Shown: positions 33,740 to 43,005 of the stretch, piece after piece
How positions within the stretch are numbered: the stretch's first letter is position 1
Layout of the letters: each line of letters opens with the position of its first letter
Assembly (NCBI RefSeq): GCF_001697225.1
Contig: NZ_CP014671.1
Coordinates: 682,001-746,000 of the forward strand
Reading direction: 5' to 3'
DNA length: 64,000 nucleotides
From: Immundisolibacter cernigliae
GTDB taxonomy: Bacteria > Pseudomonadota > Gammaproteobacteria > Immundisolibacterales > Immundisolibacteraceae
Position numbers and translations under genes: made by a program
The notes under the pieces: model-generated
Seen by the model: the letters and a program-made list of their open reading frames with translations, nothing else
What the model was told of the DNA's origin: nothing
Database searches by the model: none

Positions 33740-34321
33740 ATGAACCTTGGCGAGCTGGCAGAAGTACAAATGGGCTACCCCTTCCGGTCGCGCCTCGAGC
33801 ACGACCCGCGGGGCGATGTCGCCGTGATCCAGATGAAGGACATCGACGACGCCAACCTGCTGCACGCCGAAGAGGCGATCCGGGTGGCGCTGCCCAAGGG
33901 CAAGACCCACCACCTGCTGCGCGCGGGTGACCTGCTGTTCCGCTCGCGCGGCCGCAGCAATGGCACGGCGCAGGTGCTGGAAGGCATCGGCCCGGCCGTG
34001 CTCGCGGCGCCGATGCTGCTGATCCGACCGCACAAGGTACTGCCCGAATATCTCTGCTGGTATATCAACGCGCCGGCCACCCAGGCCCAACTGGCGGGGC
34101 TGGCCGAGGGCACCTCGGTGCGGATGATCAGCGCCGAAGCCCTGAAGGCGCTGGACGTTCCCCTACCTTCGCGGGCCACGCAGCAACGCATCGCCCAAGC
34201 CGCCGCCCTGGCCGAACAGGAACAAACGCTGCTGGCCCGCATCGCCACCCTGCGCCAGCGCCTGACCACTCATCTTTTGATGAAGCTTGCCCACCCATCG
34301 CCAGCAAGGGCCAACCCATGA
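33740..34321 (+). CDS. Half-size type I restriction specificity protein (single TRD)
   Basis: A 193-residue protein with one target-recognition domain (residues 1-155) followed by one conserved helical arm (about 155-190, QRIAQAAALAEQEQTLLARIATLRQRL). Normal HsdS has two of each and about 400 residues. There is no clear ribosome-binding site before the ATG. It overlaps hsdM by 4 bases. Half-size specificity proteins can dimerise to recognise a symmetric site, or could compete with the full HsdS encoded downstream. It is not an obvious fragment of a longer gene, since both ends are clean. Confidence 0.78.
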   Translation: MNLGELAEVQMGYPFRSRLEHDPRGDVAVIQMKDIDDANLLHAEEAIRVALPKGKTHHLLRAGDLLFRSRGRSNGTAQVLEGIGPAVLAAPMLLIRPHKVLPEYLCWYINAPATQAQLAGLAEGTSVRMISAEALKALDVPLPSRATQQRIAQAAALAEQEQTLLARIATLRQRLTTHLLMKLAHPSPARANP

Positions 34322-35877
34322 CCGACCAGCTCAGCCAACAAGACGTCAACAACACCGCCTGGGCCGCCTGCGACACCTTTCGCGGCGTCATCGACCCGGC
34401 GCAGTACAAGGACTACATCCTGGTGATGCTGTTCCTCAAGTACATCAGCGATCAGTGGGCCGACCACTACGCCGAATACAAAAAAGAGTACGGCGACAAC
34501 GAGGAGCGCATCCGCCGCAAGCTGGAGCGCGAGCGCTTCATCCTGCCCTACGTCGAGTTCAGGGACGAAAAGACCGGCGAGGTCACCGACCGCTTCCTAG
34601 CCGACTTCCATGCCCTGTACGAGCGGCGCAAGGCGGCCAACCTCGGCGAGCTGATCAACATCGTGCTCGACCACATCGAGGAGGCCAACAAGGCCAAGCT
34701 CGAAGGTGTGTTCCGCAACATCGATTTCAACTCCGAGGCCAATCTCGGCAAGACCAGGGACCGCAACCGCCGCCTGGAAAACCTGCTGGGCGACTTCGCC
34801 AAGCTCGACCTGCGCCCCTCGCGCGTGTCCGAGGACGTGATTGGCGATACCTACATTTACCTCATCGAGCGCTTCGCCTCCGACGCCGGCAAGAAGGCCG
34901 GCGAGTTCTACACGCCCAAGCAGGTATCGAAGCTGCTGGCGCAACTGGCCAACCCCCAACCTGGCGACCGCATCTGCGACCCCGCCTGCGGCTCCGGCGG
35001 GTTGCTGATCGAGGCCGCCGAGCGGGTGGAACGGCGCGGGAGCCGGGACTTTGCCCTGTTCGGGCAGGAGGTCAACGGCAGCACCTGGGCGCTGGCGCGC
35101 ATGAACATGTTCCTGCACGGCAAGGACGGCGCCCGCATCGAGTGGTGCGACACGCTCAACAGCCCGGCGCTGGTCGAGGCCGACCGCCTGATGCGCTTCA
35201 ACGTGGTGGTCGCCAACCCACCCTTCAGCCTCGACAAATGGGGCGGCAACGAAATCGAGGCCGACCGCTACAACCGCTTCTGGCGCGGCCTGCCGCCCAA
35301 ATCCAAGGGCGACTACGCCTTCATCACGCACATGATCGAAACCGCGCTGCCGCAGGAGGGCCGCGTGGCCGTGGTGGTGCCCCACGGCGTGTTGTTCCGG
35401 GGTGGCGCAGAAGGCCGCATCCGCCGGGCGCTCATCGAGGAGAACCTGCTCGATGCCGTCATCGGCCTGCCGGGCAACCTGTTCCCCACCACCTCGATTC
35501 CGGTGGCCATCCTGGTGTTCGACCGCGCCCGCGAAAAGGGCGGCGCCCGCGAGGACTGCAAGGACGTGCTGTTCATCGACGCCAGCCGTGACTACCAGAG
35601 CGGCAAGAACCAGAACGTGCTGCTCGATGCCCACCTCACGCGCATCCTCGACACCTTCCGCGCGCGCCTGTCGGAAGACAAGTACGCCCACATCGCGAGC
35701 CTTGAGGAAATCGCCGACAACGACTTCAATCTCAACATCCCGCGCTACGTGGACACCTTCGAGGAAGAGGAAGAGATCGACGTCGCCGCCGTCGAGCGGG
35801 AGATCGAGCGCCTGGAGGGCGAGCTGGCTGAGGTGCGCCTGCGGATGAAGCAGTACCTCAAGGAGCTGGGCGTATGA
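34318..35877 (+). CDS. hsdM: Type I restriction-modification DNA methyltransferase subunit
   Basis: A 519-residue N6-adenine methyltransferase subunit. The N-terminal helical domain (residues 1-150) contains YILVMLFLKYISDQW. SAM motif I is DPACGSGGLLIEAAE near residue 221 and the catalytic motif IV is NPPF near residue 300. The C-terminus is a coiled coil (EEEEEIDVAAVEREIERLE) that contacts HsdS. ATGA overlaps occur at both ends. Confidence 0.96.
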   Translation: MTDQLSQQDVNNTAWAACDTFRGVIDPAQYKDYILVMLFLKYISDQWADHYAEYKKEYGDNEERIRRKLERERFILPYVEFRDEKTGEVTDRFLADFHALYERRKAANLGELINIVLDHIEEANKAKLEGVFRNIDFNSEANLGKTRDRNRRLENLLGDFAKLDLRPSRVSEDVIGDTYIYLIERFASDAGKKAGEFYTPKQVSKLLAQLANPQPGDRICDPACGSGGLLIEAAERVERRGSRDFALFGQEVNGSTWALARMNMFLHGKDGARIEWCDTLNSPALVEADRLMRFNVVVANPPFSLDKWGGNEIEADRYNRFWRGLPPKSKGDYAFITHMIETALPQEGRVAVVVPHGVLFRGGAEGRIRRALIEENLLDAVIGLPGNLFPTTSIPVAILVFDRAREKGGAREDCKDVLFIDASRDYQSGKNQNVLLDAHLTRILDTFRARLSEDKYAHIASLEEIADNDFNLNIPRYVDTFEEEEEIDVAAVEREIERLEGELAEVRLRMKQYLKELGV

Positions 35878-36788
35878 GCAAGAAATCGACGACCAATCTT
35901 CCTGTCATCGAGACCGATCGAATCGTCGTTTTTCAGGAGCAAACCATCCGCCGCACCTGGCATGCAGACCAATGGTGGTTCTCCGTCATCGACGTGGTGG
36001 GCGTGCTTTCCGAGAGCAGCAATGCCAACCGTTATTGGTCGGATCTCAAACGCAAGCTGGCCCAGGAAGCGGGTTCCGGCCAACCGTACGAAAAAATCGT
36101 ACGGTTGAAACTGACCGCGCCGGACGGCAAGCAGCGCGAAACCGACTGCGCCAATACCGAGACCCTGTTCCGCATCATCCAGTCCATTCCCTCGCCCAAG
36201 GCCGAGCCCTTCAAGCGCTGGCTGGCCCAGGTCGGCTATGAACGGGTCAAGGAGATCGAAGACCCGGAGCTCGCCAGCGCCCGGGCGCGCGAGCTCTATG
36301 AAGCCAAGGGCTACCCCAAGGACTGGATCGAGAAGCGCCTGCGCTCCATCACCGTGCGCGGCGCCCTCACCGACGAATGGAAGCAGCGCGGCGTCACCGA
36401 GGGCCGCGAATACTCCATCCTCACCGCCGAGATCGCCCGCGCCACCTTCGGCATCACCCCCGGCGACCACAAGAAGCTCAAGGGCCTGGAACAGGCCAAG
36501 GCCGCCAACCTGCGCGACCACATGACCGACCTGGAACTGATCTTCACCATGCTGGGCGAGGCCAGCACCACCGAGATCGCCAAGCGCAAGGACGCCCAGG
36601 GTTTCCAGCAGAACAAGACCGCCGCCAAGGTGGGTGGCGCTGTGGCCGGCAACGCACGCAAGGAACTGGAGGCGAAGTCCGGCAAACCCGTCGTCAGCCG
36701 CGAAAACTATCTGGCGCAGCCGGACTCGGATGCCGCCGAAACGCCCGGTCTTACGCCGCCCAGGAAGAAACCGAGGAACAAGCAATGA
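35874..36788 (+). CDS. Bro-N domain protein (phage antirepressor-like)
   Basis: A 304-residue protein. Residues about 15-110 match the Bro-N domain (VVFQEQTIRRTWHADQWWFSVIDV), found in phage antirepressors and baculovirus BRO proteins and often DNA binding. The middle (about 115-240) is helical with conserved GYPKDWIEKRLRSI and RGALTDEWKQRG; the tail is basic. It is embedded by 4-base overlaps between hsdM and the rhuM-like gene, so it is co-expressed with the restriction system. Its role there is unknown; regulation of the operon is a reasonable guess. Confidence 0.82.
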   Translation: MSKKSTTNLPVIETDRIVVFQEQTIRRTWHADQWWFSVIDVVGVLSESSNANRYWSDLKRKLAQEAGSGQPYEKIVRLKLTAPDGKQRETDCANTETLFRIIQSIPSPKAEPFKRWLAQVGYERVKEIEDPELASARARELYEAKGYPKDWIEKRLRSITVRGALTDEWKQRGVTEGREYSILTAEIARATFGITPGDHKKLKGLEQAKAANLRDHMTDLELIFTMLGEASTTEIAKRKDAQGFQQNKTAAKVGGAVAGNARKELEAKSGKPVVSRENYLAQPDSDAAETPGLTPPRKKPRNKQ

Positions 36789-37806
36789 GCGGCGGCGAAC
36801 TGATCCTCTACACGGCCGAGGACGGTAGCGCCGCGATCCAGTTGCGTGCCGAGGGCGGCACGGTCTGGCTGACACAAGCCGAGATCGCCACCCTGTTCGA
36901 CACCACGCCGCAGAACATCACCCAGCACACCAAGGCCATCTATGCCGAGGGCGAGCTGAGCGAGGGGGCAACCTGTAAGGAACTCTTACAAGTTCGCCAG
37001 GAGGGTGGCCGGGCGGTCAATCGCAGCCTCAAGCACTACAACCTGGACATGATCCTGGCCGTCGGCTACCGGGTGCGCTCCCCGCGCGGCACCCAGTTCC
37101 GCCAGTGGGCCACCGCCCACCTGCGCGAGTACCTGGTCAAGGGCTTCGTGCTGGACGACACGAGGCTCAAGGAGCCCGGCGGCTGGGACTACTTCGACGA
37201 ACTGCTGGCGCGCATCCGCGACATCCGCGCCTCGGAAAAGCGCTTCTACCAGAAGATCCGCGACATCTACGCCACCGCCGTGGACTACGACAACAAGTCC
37301 GAGGCCGCCCAGTTGTTCTTCAAGAAGGTGCAGAACAAGATGCTGTGGGCCGTCACCGGCCACACCGCGCCCGAACTCATCGCCGGCCGCGCCGACCCGC
37401 CCTGCCCAACATGGGCCTGACCACCTGGGCCGGCGGCCGTGTGCGCAAGCAGGACGTCACCATCGCCAAGAACTATCTGAGCCGCGAGGAGATCGAGGCG
37501 CTGGACCGCATCGTGGTCATGTACCTCGACTACGCCGAGGACCAGGCCCAGCGCCGCCGTACCCTGAGCATGCGCGACTGGGAAGACAAGCTCGACGCCT
37601 TCCTGCAGTTCAATGAACGCGAAGTCCTGACCCACGCCGGCAAGCTGCGCAGTGAGGTGGCGGAGAAGCTGGCCCTGGAGCGCTACGAGAGCTTTGACGC
37701 CGGCCAGCGCGAGGCGGCGAGGTTGGCAGCGGATGCCGAGGACATGGCGGCGTTGGAGAACGCCGAGCGGCAACTGGAACGCAAAGGGCGGGGGAAGAAG
37801 AAATGA
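36785..37806 (+). pseudogene. RhuM family protein, frameshifted as written
   Basis: It starts with ATGA overlap and reads MSGGELILYTAEDG, then VWLTQAEIATLFDTTPQNI, a helix-turn-helix-like RhuM start. At the CCCG at 37396-37399 the frame breaks. After it, PNMGLTTWAGGRVRKQDVTIAK and FLQFNEREVLTHAGKL continue the family in the next frame to the stop at 37806. One added base gives 340 residues, ELIAGRADP-x-LPNMGLT, as in homologues. RhuM proteins are frequent in type I restriction operons; their function is not established. Probably a sequencing error. Confidence 0.8.
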
Positions 37807-38966
37807 CGGACCTATCGCGCCTGCAAGAGTTTCGATTGGGGGATGCCTGCGAAATCGCAGTTGGTCGTGATCTCGTCGAGGATCGCTTTTCAGTTACAAA
37901 AACTGGCACGCATGTTTACCCTGTATTTTCCAATTCGGTAGAGAACTATGGGCTCTATGGCTTCTACGATTTTCCTGAATATGAACGCAAAGCAGTTACG
38001 ATAGTTGGACGAGGCGCTGGGCTTGGAACAGCATTCATCCGCGATGCTGGATTTGGGGCGATTGGACGCCTTCTGGTGCTATTCCCCAATGAGAACGTCG
38101 ATCCTGACTATCTCGCGGAGTACATAAACGACAAGATCGAATTTCATGTTGAGAGTAGTGGAATCCCTCAGCTCACAGGGCAGCAATGCGCAGGGTACAA
38201 GATACTTCTCCCCAGTATTCCTGAGCAGAGATTAATCGCCTCAGCGCTGACAAGCTGGAACACCGCCATCCAGAAAACCGAGCAACTGATCGCGGCGAAG
38301 GAGCGGCACTACAGCCACGAACTGTCGCGCCTAATCAGCCGGGGCCAGCACCCGCACGCCCACGTCGGCACCTTTGCCGAGGAGGTCTCCGCCCGTAATC
38401 GCGGTGGCAAGTGGCGAACCGTTTCGCTCTCCGACGTCACCACCGTGTGGAAGGGTCAGCAACTCAACAAGGACGCGATGGTCGAGGATGGCGCCTACTA
38501 CGCACTCAATGGCGGCATCAAGCCATCTGGCCGCACCACAGCATGGAACTGCGAGACTGACACCATCACGGTCAGCGAGGGCGGCAACTCGTGCGGCTTC
38601 GTGTCCTATAACCGCGAGCGATTCTGGTGCGGCGGACACTGCTACGCCCTTACGAAGCTTGCGAAAGACGTTGATGCGCATTACCTGTTTCACTACCTGA
38701 AGGGCAAGCAAGCTCGGGTAATGGCGCTGCGCGTTGGGTCTGGACTGCCGAACATCCAGAAATCGGACCTCGAAGCCTTCCCGGTCGTGCTACCCGACCT
38801 GGTCACCCAAACCGCCATCGCCCGCTACCTCAACGCCCTGCGCGAGGAGATCGACCTGCTCGGCCAGTCTGTGGTGGCACTCAAGACCCAGAAGCGCGGC
38901 CTGATGCAGAAGCTGCTCACTGGCCAGTGGCGGCTTCCCGCTCAGGAAAAGGCTGTTTCGGCATGA
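37803..38966 (+). CDS. hsdS: Type I restriction-modification specificity subunit, two TRDs
   Basis: A 387-residue specificity subunit that chooses the two halves of the recognition site. TRD1 spans about residues 8-145, a helical arm follows (IPEQRLIASALTSWNTAIQKTEQL), then TRD2 (about 200-345) and a second arm (TQTAIARYLNALREEIDLL, then TQKRGLMQKLLTGQW). The TRD1 coding part is poorer in G+C than the neighbours: 37861-37980 counts 52 G+C of 120. That suggests a domain exchanged from another genome. ATGA overlaps on both sides. Confidence 0.93.
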   Translation: MTDLSRLQEFRLGDACEIAVGRDLVEDRFSVTKTGTHVYPVFSNSVENYGLYGFYDFPEYERKAVTIVGRGAGLGTAFIRDAGFGAIGRLLVLFPNENVDPDYLAEYINDKIEFHVESSGIPQLTGQQCAGYKILLPSIPEQRLIASALTSWNTAIQKTEQLIAAKERHYSHELSRLISRGQHPHAHVGTFAEEVSARNRGGKWRTVSLSDVTTVWKGQQLNKDAMVEDGAYYALNGGIKPSGRTTAWNCETDTITVSEGGNSCGFVSYNRERFWCGGHCYALTKLAKDVDAHYLFHYLKGKQARVMALRVGSGLPNIQKSDLEAFPVVLPDLVTQTAIARYLNALREEIDLLGQSVVALKTQKRGLMQKLLTGQWRLPAQEKAVSA

Positions 38967-39625
38967 CGCAATGTGCCTACGTTTTTCTCGACGAGGGCGG
39001 GAACTTCGATTTCAGCCCCACCGGCACGCGCTACTTCGTGATGAGCAGCGTGGCCATGCGTCGCCCGTTTCCGGCCCATGGTCCACTCGATGACTACAAG
39101 CATGACTGTCTGGAGTACGGGTTGGATACCGAGTATTTCCACTGCGCCGACGACAACACCCATGTGCGGCGCAAGGTGTTCGAGCTGATCGCCGGGCATC
39201 TGGGCTCACTGCGCATCGACAGCCTGATCGTGGAAAAGGCGAAGACTGGCCCGGCGCTGCGGGCCGATGAAGCCTTCTATCCGAAGATGCTCGGCTACCT
39301 GCTGCGCTATGTGGTCGAGCGTGAGGTGGTCAATGGGGTCGAGGAGCTGATCGTCATCACCGACACCATCCCGGTGCAGAAGAAGCGCAAAGCGGTGGAG
39401 AAAGCCATCAAGTCGGTTCTGGCAGCCATGCTGCCGGCGGGAATGCGCTACCGCATTTTGCATCACGCCTCGCGCTCCCATTACGGGTTGCAGGTAGCGG
39501 ATTACTGCAACTGGGCGGTGTTCCGGAAATGGCAACGCGGGGAGACGGAGTTCTACGACCAGATCAAACCGGCCTTGCGCAGCGAGTTCGACATCTTCAG
39601 GACGGGGGTGACTTATTACTACTAA
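38963..39625 (+). CDS. DUF3800 domain protein
   Basis: A 220-residue protein. The N-terminus YVFLDEGGNFDF matches the Asp/Glu-Gly start of DUF3800, a family with an RNase H-like fold and conserved acidic residues (also LIVITDTIPVQKKRK in the middle and YGLQVADYCNWAVFRKW near the C-terminus). Family members are common next to restriction and other defence genes, but no activity is proven. Co-translated with hsdS by a 4-base overlap. Last gene before the structured spacer. Confidence 0.8.
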   Translation: MTQCAYVFLDEGGNFDFSPTGTRYFVMSSVAMRRPFPAHGPLDDYKHDCLEYGLDTEYFHCADDNTHVRRKVFELIAGHLGSLRIDSLIVEKAKTGPALRADEAFYPKMLGYLLRYVVEREVVNGVEELIVITDTIPVQKKRKAVEKAIKSVLAAMLPAGMRYRILHHASRSHYGLQVADYCNWAVFRKWQRGETEFYDQIKPALRSEFDIFRTGVTYYY

Positions 39626-39720: not shown

Positions 39721-42700
39721 ATGAGTACCCCTGACGCCAGCCAAAGTTCGGAGCGCAGTTTCCGCTTCGACGAAAAATACCTGTCCCAGATCCCGGCCCT
39801 GCAGGTGCTGGTCAACCTGGGCTATCAATATCTGACGCCCGCCGAGGCGCTGGCCGCGCGCGGCGGCAAGGCCGGCAACGTGCTGCTGGAAGAGATCCTG
39901 CGCGAGCAACTGAAGAAGCTGAACCGCATCCAGCACAAGGGCGGCAGCTACCTGTTCAGCGAGGAGAACATCCAGAGTGCCATCCAGCGCCTGAAGAACG
40001 TCAAGTACGACGGCCTGCTCAGGACCAACGAGGCGGTGTACGACCTGCTGACGTTGGGCCTGGCGCTGGAGCAGTCCGTCGAGGGCGACCTGAAGAGCTT
40101 CACGCTGAACTACGTGGACTGGCGCAACCCGGCCAACAACGTCTATCACGTGGCCGCCGAGTTTGCGGTGGAGCGCACCCGCAGCGTCGAGACTTGCCGG
40201 CCGGACGTGGTGCTATTCGTCAACGGCATCCCCTTCGCGGTGATCGAATGCAAGTCGCCCAGGGTCGAGGTGGATCAGGCCATCTCGCAGACCATCCGCA
40301 ACCAGCGCGACGAATACATCCCGCGCCTGTTCACGTACACGCAGATGGTGCTGGCGCTCAACAAGAACGAGGCCCGCTACGCCACCACCGGCACCCCAGC
40401 CAAGTTCTGGTCGAAGTGGAAGGAGGACGTGGCGGACGCCGATCTCGCGCCACTGCTGGAGCGCCCGTTGCCGGAGTCGGTCAAGGCCTCGCTGTTTGAT
40501 CTGGCCTTTGCCGAGCTGGGCGTGCGCGAGGAGATTGCGCCCTACCTGGTCGGCCGGCAGGTGACCGAGCAGGACCGCACGCTTTACGCCCTGTGCCGCC
40601 CTGAGCGCCTGCTGGAGATGGCCTGGGCCTTTACCGTGTTCGACGGCGGCGTGCGCAAGATCGCGCGCTATCAGCAGGTGTTTGCCATTCAGGAGGTGCT
40701 GCAGCGGGTCAGGCAAATTGAACCGGCCCTCTCCCCCGGCCCCTCTCCCGCAAGCGGGCGAGGGGAGTTTCGCCGCCGCGGCGGCATCGTCTGGCACACC
40801 CAGGGCTCGGGCAAGTCGCTGACCATGGTGATGCTGGCGCGCGCACTGGCGCTGGAGCCGGCCATCCGCAATCCGCGCATCGTGCTGGTGACCGACCGGG
40901 TGGATCTGGACAAGCAGCTCGGCAACACCTTCGCCGCCTGCGGCCTTGCACCCGACCGGGCCGAGAGCGGCCGCCATCTGGTCGAACTGGTGTCCGACGG
41001 CAAGGCGCACATCGTCACCACCCTGGTGCACAAGTTCGACAAGGCGCTGGCCTACAAAAAGTTCAGCGATGCCTCGCCCGACATCTTCGTGCTGGTGGAC
41101 GAGACCCAGCGCACCCAGCTGGGCGGCTATTCGGCGCGCATGCGGCAGATGTTCCCCAATGCCTGCTACATCGGCTTCACCGGCACACCGCTGCTGACCC
41201 GCGAGAAGAGCGACGTGGCCAAGTTCGGCGGCGTGATCCACACCTATGCCATCGACCAGGCGGTGGCCGACGGCGCCATCGTGCCGCTGCTCTACGAAGG
41301 GCGCATGGTGGAGCTGGAGCAGAACCAGGCGGCGATCGACATCTGGTTCGAACGCCACACCCAGGGGCTGACCGACCAGCAGAAAACTGATCTCAAAAAG
41401 AAATACGCCCGCGCCGAAATGCTGAACAAGGCCGAGCAGGTGATCTACATGCGCGCCTTCGACATCAGCGAGCACTACCGCCAGAACTGGCAGGGCACCG
41501 GCTTCAAGGCGCAGCTGGTGGCGCCCAACAAGGCGGCGGCGCTGCGCTACAAAGCGTTTCTGGACGAGCTGGGCGCGGTCAGCAGCGAGGTGATCATCTC
41601 GCCACCCGACGAGCGCGAAGGCTTCGACGAGATCGACGCCGAGGAGTCCACCGACGCGGTGGTGGCCTTCTGGCAGCGCATGATGAAGCGCTACGGCTCG
41701 GAGGAGGACTACAACAAGCAGATCGTCAACGCCTTCAAGTTCGGCGACGAGCCGGAAATCCTGATCGTGGTGGACAAGCTGCTGACCGGCTTCGATGCAC
41801 CGCGCAACACGGTGCTCTACCTGACCCGGCGGCTCAAGGATCATTCCCTGTTGCAGGCCATTGCCCGGGTGAACCGCCTGTACGAGGACGAGTCCGGCAG
41901 CAAGACGAAGGACTTCGGCTATGTCATCGACTACGTGGGTGTGTTGGGCGAGCTGGACCAGGCGCTGACCACCTACAGCGCGCTGGAAGGCTTCGATGCG
42001 GACGACCTCAAGGGCGCGCTGGCCTCGATCCAGGATGAGGTAAAGCAACTCCCGCAGCGCCACGCGGAGCTGTGGGACCTGTTCAAGACGGTGAAGAACC
42101 GTCAGGACGAAGAGTCCTTCGAACAACTGCTGGCCGATGAGAAGCTGCGCGCCGATTTTTACGAGCGGCTGTCGGCCTACGCCAAGACCTTAGGGATTGC
42201 GCTGTCCAGCGAACGTTTCATCACCGACACACCCGAGCAGAAGCTGCGCGCCTACAAGAACGACCTCAAGCGCTTCGTCAATCTGAAGGCAGCCGTGAAG
42301 CTGCGCTATGCCGAGTCAGTGGACTACCGCGACTTCGAGCCGCGCATCCAGAAGCTGCTGGACACGCACATCTCGGCCTCCGAGGTGGTGCAGCTGAACG
42401 CGCCGGTGAACATCTTCGACGAGGCCGCATTCCAGAAGGTGGTCGAGGAGCAGGGTGCGGGCAGCGACAAGAACCTTGGAGCCAAGGCCGACATGATCGC
42501 CCACGCCACCAGGCGCACCATCCACGAACGGCTGGAGCAGGACCCGGCCTTCTACGAGAAGTTCTCCAAACTGATCCAGCAGGCCATCGACGACTACCGC
42601 GCCCGGCGCCTGTCCGATCTGGAGTACCTGCAGCGGGTCACCGAGATCAAGGACGCCGTGGTCTCGCGCAAGGGCGATGACCTGCCGCCGGCACTGAACG

Positions 42701-43005
42701 GCGATGCCGACGCGGCCGCCGTCTATGGCCTGCTGCGCCCCTTCGTGGCGAACCACCTCAGCGACGCCGAGCAGGCTCAGAACACCGCCGCCGAAGCAGC
42801 GATGGCGGTGTGGGACATCTTCCGCCGCAACCGCAAGGTGGGTTATTGGGATGACCTCGATGCCCAGCGCCGGACCATGAACGCGATCGACGACTACCTC
42901 TACGACGAGGTCAAGGGCGCACGCGGCATCGCGCTCTCGACCGAAGAGATGGACGAGATCATCGAGAAAACCATGCAGCTCGCCCGCCACCGGATGGCGA
43001 GGTGA
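39721..43005 (+). CDS. hsdR: Type I restriction enzyme motor and nuclease subunit
   Basis: A 1094-residue restriction subunit. The PD-(D/E)xK nuclease core is RPDVVLFVNGIPFAVIECK near residues 160-178. Helicase motifs follow: Walker A WHTQGSGKSLT near 361, DETQRTQLGGYSARM (motif II), YIGFTGTPLL (motif III), and LLQAIARVNRLY (motif VI). The C-terminal third is helical and binds the methyltransferase. Just before Walker A, at about residues 336-352, the peptide LSPGPSPASGRGEF is encoded by an inserted palindromic repeat, in frame. The gene appears intact. Confidence 0.95.
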   Translation: MSTPDASQSSERSFRFDEKYLSQIPALQVLVNLGYQYLTPAEALAARGGKAGNVLLEEILREQLKKLNRIQHKGGSYLFSEENIQSAIQRLKNVKYDGLLRTNEAVYDLLTLGLALEQSVEGDLKSFTLNYVDWRNPANNVYHVAAEFAVERTRSVETCRPDVVLFVNGIPFAVIECKSPRVEVDQAISQTIRNQRDEYIPRLFTYTQMVLALNKNEARYATTGTPAKFWSKWKEDVADADLAPLLERPLPESVKASLFDLAFAELGVREEIAPYLVGRQVTEQDRTLYALCRPERLLEMAWAFTVFDGGVRKIARYQQVFAIQEVLQRVRQIEPALSPGPSPASGRGEFRRRGGIVWHTQGSGKSLTMVMLARALALEPAIRNPRIVLVTDRVDLDKQLGNTFAACGLAPDRAESGRHLVELVSDGKAHIVTTLVHKFDKALAYKKFSDASPDIFVLVDETQRTQLGGYSARMRQMFPNACYIGFTGTPLLTREKSDVAKFGGVIHTYAIDQAVADGAIVPLLYEGRMVELEQNQAAIDIWFERHTQGLTDQQKTDLKKKYARAEMLNKAEQVIYMRAFDISEHYRQNWQGTGFKAQLVAPNKAAALRYKAFLDELGAVSSEVIISPPDEREGFDEIDAEESTDAVVAFWQRMMKRYGSEEDYNKQIVNAFKFGDEPEILIVVDKLLTGFDAPRNTVLYLTRRLKDHSLLQAIARVNRLYEDESGSKTKDFGYVIDYVGVLGELDQALTTYSALEGFDADDLKGALASIQDEVKQLPQRHAELWDLFKTVKNRQDEESFEQLLADEKLRADFYERLSAYAKTLGIALSSERFITDTPEQKLRAYKNDLKRFVNLKAAVKLRYAESVDYRDFEPRIQKLLDTHISASEVVQLNAPVNIFDEAAFQKVVEEQGAGSDKNLGAKADMIAHATRRTIHERLEQDPAFYEKFSKLIQQAIDDYRARRLSDLEYLQRVTEIKDAVVSRKGDDLPPALNGDADAAAVYGLLRPFVANHLSDAEQAQNTAAEAAMAVWDIFRRNRKVGYWDDLDAQRRTMNAIDDYLYDEVKGARGIALSTEEMDEIIEKTMQLARHRMAR
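40727..40767 (+). repeat. REP-like palindromic element inserted in frame in hsdR
   Basis: The stretch is C/T-rich, then forms a hairpin: CCCCTCTCCCGC (40740-40751) against GCGGGCGAGGGG (40754-40765), one mismatch, two-base loop. Repeats of this type, which encode LSPxPSPAxGRGE when read in this frame, are scattered between genes in many proteobacteria (from memory). This is the only copy I see in the window. Confidence 0.8.

Follow-up and report, generated by a model that had tools for sequence, protein, structure and literature searches.

The 64-kb stretch of DNA analysed here (the window) carries a 41-bp palindromic element in frame within hsdR, the gene for the R subunit of a type I restriction enzyme. 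The element is probably a solo copy of a REP-like repeat family associated with DUF559 nucleases, present in the protein as a harmless linker; spread of the family by the nuclease is put forward as a proposal. Palindromes within coding sequence were first recognized in 2000, most of them in Rickettsia, and the link to DUF559 addresses the question of what moves them and why certain genes accumulate them. The repeat type shows a statistically strong and geometrically ordered link to this one small, Vsr-like nuclease family, and its translated copies lie, in both proteobacteria and cyanobacteria, mostly in restriction-modification and related methylase genes. Should the nuclease be what spreads it, the family would be a non-splicing, in-frame counterpart of inteins that is found chiefly in bacterial immune genes, and it would mark tolerated insertion sites in HsdR, HsdM and HsdS.

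A palindromic element within the hsdR reading frame

The hsdR gene belongs to a complete type I operon of the order hsdM, Bro-N, RhuM-like, hsdS, DUF3800, hsdR and a gene for a YgjP-type metallopeptidase. The Bro-N and RhuM-like genes, the latter named from its sequence alone, lie between hsdM and hsdS (window 35874-37806), and the DUF3800 gene lies between hsdS and hsdR (window 38927-39625). The hsdR product has Pfam matches to HSDR_N, SWI2_SNF2 and T1R_D3 as well as a match to T1RH_C below the cutoff. It follows the plan of type I R subunits, a single chain that combines the HSDR_N nuclease, the SWI2/SNF2 motor and helicase domain 3. The features of the locus are:

34318-35877, + strand: hsdM of the type I system, intact
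37803-38966, + strand: hsdS of the same system
39721-43005, + strand: full-length hsdR, R subunit of the type I restriction enzyme (1094 aa; Pfam, PADLOC)
40717-40770, + strand: whole stretch unlike the uninserted homologues (codons I333-F350), in place of the relatives' TDDS(GK), net +39 nt
40727-40767, + strand: palindromic REP-like element within the hsdR frame (residues 336-349, ALSPGPSPASGRGE)
40727-40736, + strand: unpaired tail of the element (CCCTCTCCCC; the copy in the relative L018 has the canonical CCCTCACCCC)
40740-40765, + strand: palindrome core CCCCTCTCCCGC-AA-GCGGGCGAGGGG (11/12 pairs, 2-nt loop)
40795-40818, + strand: codons of HTQGSGKS, the P-loop (Walker A motif) of HsdR (residues 359-366)

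The 41 bp of the element read CCCTCTCCCCCGGCCCCTCTCCCGCAAGCGGGCGAGGGGAG, in the order tail, spacer and palindrome, and are translated in HsdR as LSPGPSPASGRGE(F), 9 residues ahead of the P-loop motif. An earlier reading of the stretch, made from its letters without database searches (the sequence-only reading), had proposed a hairpin element of a usually intergenic type inside the hsdR frame at this place, about 10 residues before the P-loop, and the sequence bears out both points, the hairpin being of REP type. That the element keeps the frame open is likewise correct, with 1094 codons read through, but less striking than it may seem, since none of the six frames of the element contains a stop. 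Only a net length divisible by three is therefore needed for hsdR to stay open. The element pattern occurs once in the 64-kb window, compared to 0.00 occurrences expected from shuffles. An automated repeat search of the window skipped the palindrome, which has one mismatch in its pairing. The RNA fold of the element is modestly better than that of shuffled sequences (z -2.0), a modest value because the whole stretch is GC-rich.

Among solved structures, HsdR of EcoR124I is the closest relative of the window HsdR by sequence. Its homologous stretch is of other length, so this loop of HsdR varies. An AlphaFold2 model of the window HsdR, built with 39 homologues, reached a mean pLDDT of 56.5 and a pTM of 0.35, with residues 334-365 below 50; this confidence is too low to place the loop or to start a fold search from it.

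The insertion is shared with one relative and tolerated by the protein

To characterize the insertion site, 80 HsdR homologues with 54-96% identity to the window HsdR were compared. All readable relatives lack the element and carry TDDSGKRR at this site, except for one 95% identical sequence from a betaproteobacterial genome bin (L018; such bins may be mis-assigned). Close relatives read RVRQTDDSGKRRGGIVWHTQGSGKS at the site, the window HsdR reads RVRQIEPALSPGPSPASGRGEFRRRGGIVWHTQGSGKS and L018, which carries the same insertion, reads RVRQVEPALTPDPSPASGRGEFAGKRRGGIVW. Alignment of homologues, proposed in the sequence-only reading as a check, thus identifies the stretch as an insertion with one sharer among 80. 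The same reading had held that homologues with these residues and unrelated repeats would speak against an insertion; L018 has the residues and the same repeat too, and so shares the insertion.

Because the window and L018 have the element, its rarer GCGGGCGAGG variant and a trailing TTT in common, the two inserts likely stem from a single insertion event, as judged from their sequences. The net gain is +39 nt in the window hsdR and +45 nt in L018 for an element of 41 bp, so the junctions were adjusted. Compared with L018, the window copy lacks residues at the 3′ junction. The hsdR copy is the only copy of the element in the L018 bin, and this hsdR is absent from the other sampled genomes of the host's family; gene and insert therefore travelled together. 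A phage origin of the window hsdR was rejected, as no relative was found among viral contigs.

The dN/dS ratio between the hsdR genes of the window and L018 is 0.068 at a dS of 0.39, and uninserted pairs range from 0.05 to 0.08. This indicates that HsdR tolerates the insert while purifying selection acts on the protein, and the inserted alleles appear to have stayed functional for a long time. Two outcomes had been considered beforehand, tolerance of the extra loop or a weakened motor. A ratio of 0.07 between both carriers favours tolerance, in a loop just before the P-loop, and argues against the decay of a weakened enzyme.

The persistence of the insert in both carriers at this dS and dN/dS, directly beside the P-loop, could also reflect a selected function, with the palindrome tuning restriction through a hairpin that slows translation or through a Pro/Gly loop that modulates the motor and being kept in two distant hosts for this reason. 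We regard such a function as improbable. Nearly all HsdR homologues do without the insert, and other insertions of the family (in the hsdR of locus L008, in HsdM and in HsdS) occupy other frames and loops, so neither peptide nor position is conserved; moreover, the window copy lost the 3′-junction residues that L018 has. Misassembly of the palindrome, or hsdR being a pseudogene, is more improbable by far. It is true that sequencing is difficult across hairpins and GC-rich repeats, and further copies of the repeat are present in the genome. Yet the frame is open over 1094 codons in a host genome assembled as one contig, the same junction appears in the independent L018 assembly with diverged flanks, and hsdR is under purifying selection.

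Abundance and architecture of the palindrome

Counting genomic copies, as also suggested in the sequence-only reading, gave 5 copies in the host at up to 3 mismatches, 2 of which are exact to the degenerate pattern. With 5 copies only, the idea of a high-copy repeat of the host genome was rejected. In a sample of 369 genomes of the class, one genome per species, a degenerate 24-mer was detected in 27 genomes with up to 47 copies per genome, and the reversed control gave 0. Of 92 distinct copies examined, roughly ten are in-frame parts of real genes, as called from open frames and Pfam matches, and the remainder are extragenic. A CCCTC[A/T]CC tail is present on one side in 59 of 90 copies and on both sides in none of the 90. 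Within 12 bp of the palindrome, a CGTC tag was found in 2/90 copies and GTAG/CTAC in 10/90, the latter without consensus, so that neither a CGTC tag nor a GTAG foot marks the repeat. We regard the family as a widespread REP-like element composed of the tail CCCTC[A/T]CCCC, a spacer and CCCCTCTCCCGC-nn-GCGGGAGAGGGG.

The palindromes are associated with DUF559 nucleases

A link of the repeat to DUF559 nucleases had been missed in the sequence-only reading. The repeat type, a CCCTCACCCC tail with a CTCTCCC/GGGAGAG palindrome, flanks DUF559 genes, and in one case (G143:C1:515617) a whole DUF559 nuclease domain lies between two palindromes in one gene. For a systematic comparison, 27 DUF559 loci were picked by domain score alone, and loci shorter than 2200 bp were excluded from the hairpin counts. 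A CTCTCCC-type hairpin was located within 150 bp of DUF559 in 23/54 flanks (15/27 loci) and in 0/351 control windows drawn from the same loci (p = 6e-23), with a filter for the CTCTCCC type that was defined after the DUF559 flanks had been seen; hairpins counted without this sequence filter occur in 23/54 flanks and 5/351 control windows. The tails face inward to DUF559 in 14 of 16 cases (7 v 1 on each side). In a replicate with DUF559 genes on plasmids of alphaproteobacteria, deinococci, cyanobacteria and others, for which a hairpin arm of 10 instead of 11 was used, hairpins were observed in 15/28 flanks compared to 10/182 windows. The association is also visible at the level of genomes, as a strong DUF559 match is present in 14/27 palindrome-positive and in 63/342 other genomes (p = 2e-4).

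The window element has the same plan as the palindromes at DUF559 flanks, namely a tail CCCTCTCCCC (CCCTCACCCC in L018) followed by CCCCTCTCCCGC..GCGGG.GAGGGG. By this architecture it belongs to the DUF559-associated palindrome family as defined here.

It could be argued that the palindrome is an ordinary REP moved by a RAYT or Y1 tyrosine transposase. Such an element would land anywhere, the in-frame copies would result from chance and selection, and DUF559 would be a bystander that, like the palindrome, lives in dispensable, intergenic or defence-island DNA. Y1_Tnp domains are indeed common (241/369 genomes, 4 in the host), Di Nocera reported in 2013 that many genes contain REPs in frame (PMC3733652), and DnaE2-like, MtnA-like, BioF-like and SelD-like genes also carry copies. 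However, CTCTCCC-type hairpins lie within 150 bp at 0/25 of the best-scoring Y1_Tnp loci, which may be mostly IS200-like and include few true RAYTs, compared to 15/27 DUF559 loci (p = 5e-6), and across the 369 genomes the palindrome shows no association with Y1_Tnp (p = 0.2). Furthermore, the repeat does not carry the GTAG tag of RAYT-linked REPs, and the inverted geometry with inward tails around DUF559 is unexpected for bystanders. For want of a link by proximity among these Y1 loci, or at the genome level, mobilization by a RAYT is considered less likely, though true RAYTs may still have a part in it.

The Vsr-like DUF559 nuclease, or the repair of its breaks, would be the likeliest driver of the spread. 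We favour mobilization of the palindromes by DUF559 as a leading, though still tentative, proposal that has the association as its basis. The host itself has no stand-alone DUF559 gene; its sole match is weak and falls within a frame of 1524 aa. About half of the palindrome-positive genomes are devoid of a strong DUF559 match, and many DUF559 genes are devoid of palindromes; with this imperfect co-occurrence, some other factor may mobilize the element. A transposition event, a target-site duplication or a nuclease target was not seen in the sequences compared.

In-frame insertions concentrate in restriction-modification genes

The sequence-only reading had also overlooked a second in-frame copy in the host, in a type III DNA methyltransferase gene (locus L005, G000:C1:3010974-3010997, GALSPSSSPATGRGE). 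The same site is filled with GALTPGPSPASGRGE in genome G143 and with a different palindrome, GALTPTPLPEGEGE, in G088; G001, which belongs to the same genus as the host, has nothing inserted there. Occupancy of the site thus differs between genomes, as it does for homing elements. An independent palindromic insertion is present in the hsdR of L008 (L008:2520-2575, VPSPAPSGHPLPRAGEGKR), in the loop after helicase motif VI; a candidate in-frame ORF of ~105 aa at L008:158 on the minus strand was dismissed as spurious. Further in-frame copies were found in a gene that matches DrmD weakly (G260) and in an IF-2B family gene read as mtnA (G212), and a palindrome insertion was found in an intein-bearing gene read as the error-prone polymerase DnaE2 (G316, locus L152, G316:C1:764500-767600). 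In cyanobacteria, large DNA methyltransferase genes on Pseudanabaena galeata plasmids (L303, L304 and L305) contain in-frame palindrome peptides, many of them in L304; one of these genes adjoins a DISARM drmD gene and one has DUF559. The DUF1156 methylase of a Planktothrix plasmid bears such a peptide as well.

A preference for restriction-modification genes, which had likewise gone unnoticed, is also apparent for complete DUF559 units. Of 13 long DUF559-fused frames examined, 10 are restriction-modification or related methylase genes: one HsdR (G233), three HsdM, three HsdS, two type III methyltransferases and a DUF1156 methylase. In the HsdR (G233:C25, L232:1076-4729), the whole DUF559 domain is inserted in frame, separating the nuclease domain from the motor domain. 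Two of the 13 fusions are metabolic. One is an aminotransferase-fold, BioF-like gene with an in-frame DUF559 domain and palindromic peptides (L233:1559-3469, G212:C133), and the other is a SelD-like gene of the AIR synthase fold with a C-terminal DUF559 tail (L237:2453-4285, G143:C1). The fusion in G138 has no Pfam class and a helicase-like sequence. DUF559 domains embedded in host frames retain the DF..E.DG..H pattern. In G088 and G143, HsdM alignments show a solo palindrome in the very loop where G253 has a palindrome-DUF559-palindrome unit. This loop gives the strongest support for placing solo and full forms in a single family. The excess of restriction-modification genes could reflect survivorship, these genes being mobile, loop-rich and dispensable.

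We propose that the element entered a horizontally moving hsdR allele, in the loop that joins the helix ARYQQVFAI.. to the P-loop strand. A surface-loop insertion with a compatible junction would form a flexible linker without stopping the enzyme, and such copies would survive whereas others would be purged. With no stop in any of the six frames and a peptide rich in Pro and Gly, a flexible, harmless linker seems plausible. The window element would represent the solo end form, and the complete form would be palindrome-tail-DUF559 nuclease-tail-palindrome. As a mobile family it would land repeatedly in restriction-modification genes, where translated-through copies persist; these genes may collect inserts since their mobility brings them into many hosts rich in repeats, or since the nuclease targets them. 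More speculatively, palindrome-DUF559-palindrome may constitute a previously unreported kind of mobile unit, one that enters protein-coding genes, chiefly those of restriction-modification, in frame and unspliced, with the nuclease and its Pro/Gly-rich ends kept as extra parts of the host enzyme and the solo palindromes as a short, non-autonomous form.

Relation to known elements

In-frame palindromes as such are a known phenomenon. The Rickettsia palindromic elements (RPE-1, RPE-4, RPE-6 and others) are, in the account that PMC3733652 gives with reference to Ogata et al. 2000 and 2002, in-frame palindromes in likely functional proteins. For bacteria other than Rickettsia, REPs in frame were published in 2013, often within genes of DNA repair, and DnaE2 is among the REP-tagged genes listed (PMC3733652). 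In the searchable, mostly non-subscription literature, we found no earlier description of the repeat sequence, of DUF559 with palindromes or of hsdR with a REP, and neither the DUF559 association nor the concentration in restriction-modification genes.

The resemblance to Rickettsia elements noted in the sequence-only reading stands as an analogy. Like an RPE, the window element is an in-frame insertion in a protein gene under purifying selection (dN/dS 0.07), with a product that is probably functional. The resemblance does not extend to membership: the sequence differs, RPE-4 and RPE-6 are CGTC-tagged repeats and the window element has neither a CGTC nor a GTAG tag, so a Rickettsia-type element was rejected. 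In addition, unlike RPEs, the copies are mostly extragenic, occur in hosts of several phyla and flank a nuclease gene. With REPs of the GTAG and CGTC superfamilies and with REPIN/RAYT systems the family shares palindromes of 20-40 bp, an unpaired flank, a mostly intergenic location, a patchy proteobacterial distribution and occasional translation. It differs from them by the missing GTAG/CGTC tag and, here, by its association with DUF559 instead of Y1 tyrosine transposases.

QMITE2 of Coxiella, a non-autonomous DNA with short inverted repeats, occurs in full and short REP-like forms with some in-frame copies (PMC5896051). The present family is similar to such bacterial MITEs in its short inverted repeats, its full and short forms and its in-frame copies. 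In contrast to QMITE2, no transposase with matching ends was found, and a nuclease of the PD-(D/E)XK type is the candidate partner. In Caulobacter, the Vsr-like DUF559 protein VsrA is fully responsible for an SOS response in a methylase mutant, which the authors attribute to accidental double-strand breaks (PMC12907096). As in homing endonuclease elements, including Vsr-like ones and inteins, a small nuclease domain sits in frame in a conserved, often DNA-acting gene, and the same loop is occupied in different genomes. Unlike in homing elements and inteins, no splicing domain was seen beside DUF559, and the insert seems to stay in the protein. As a separate observation, a deltaproteobacterial HsdR (L059, near 930) carries an in-frame SPFTLHPSPF after the Walker A region, which derives from a different repeat type.
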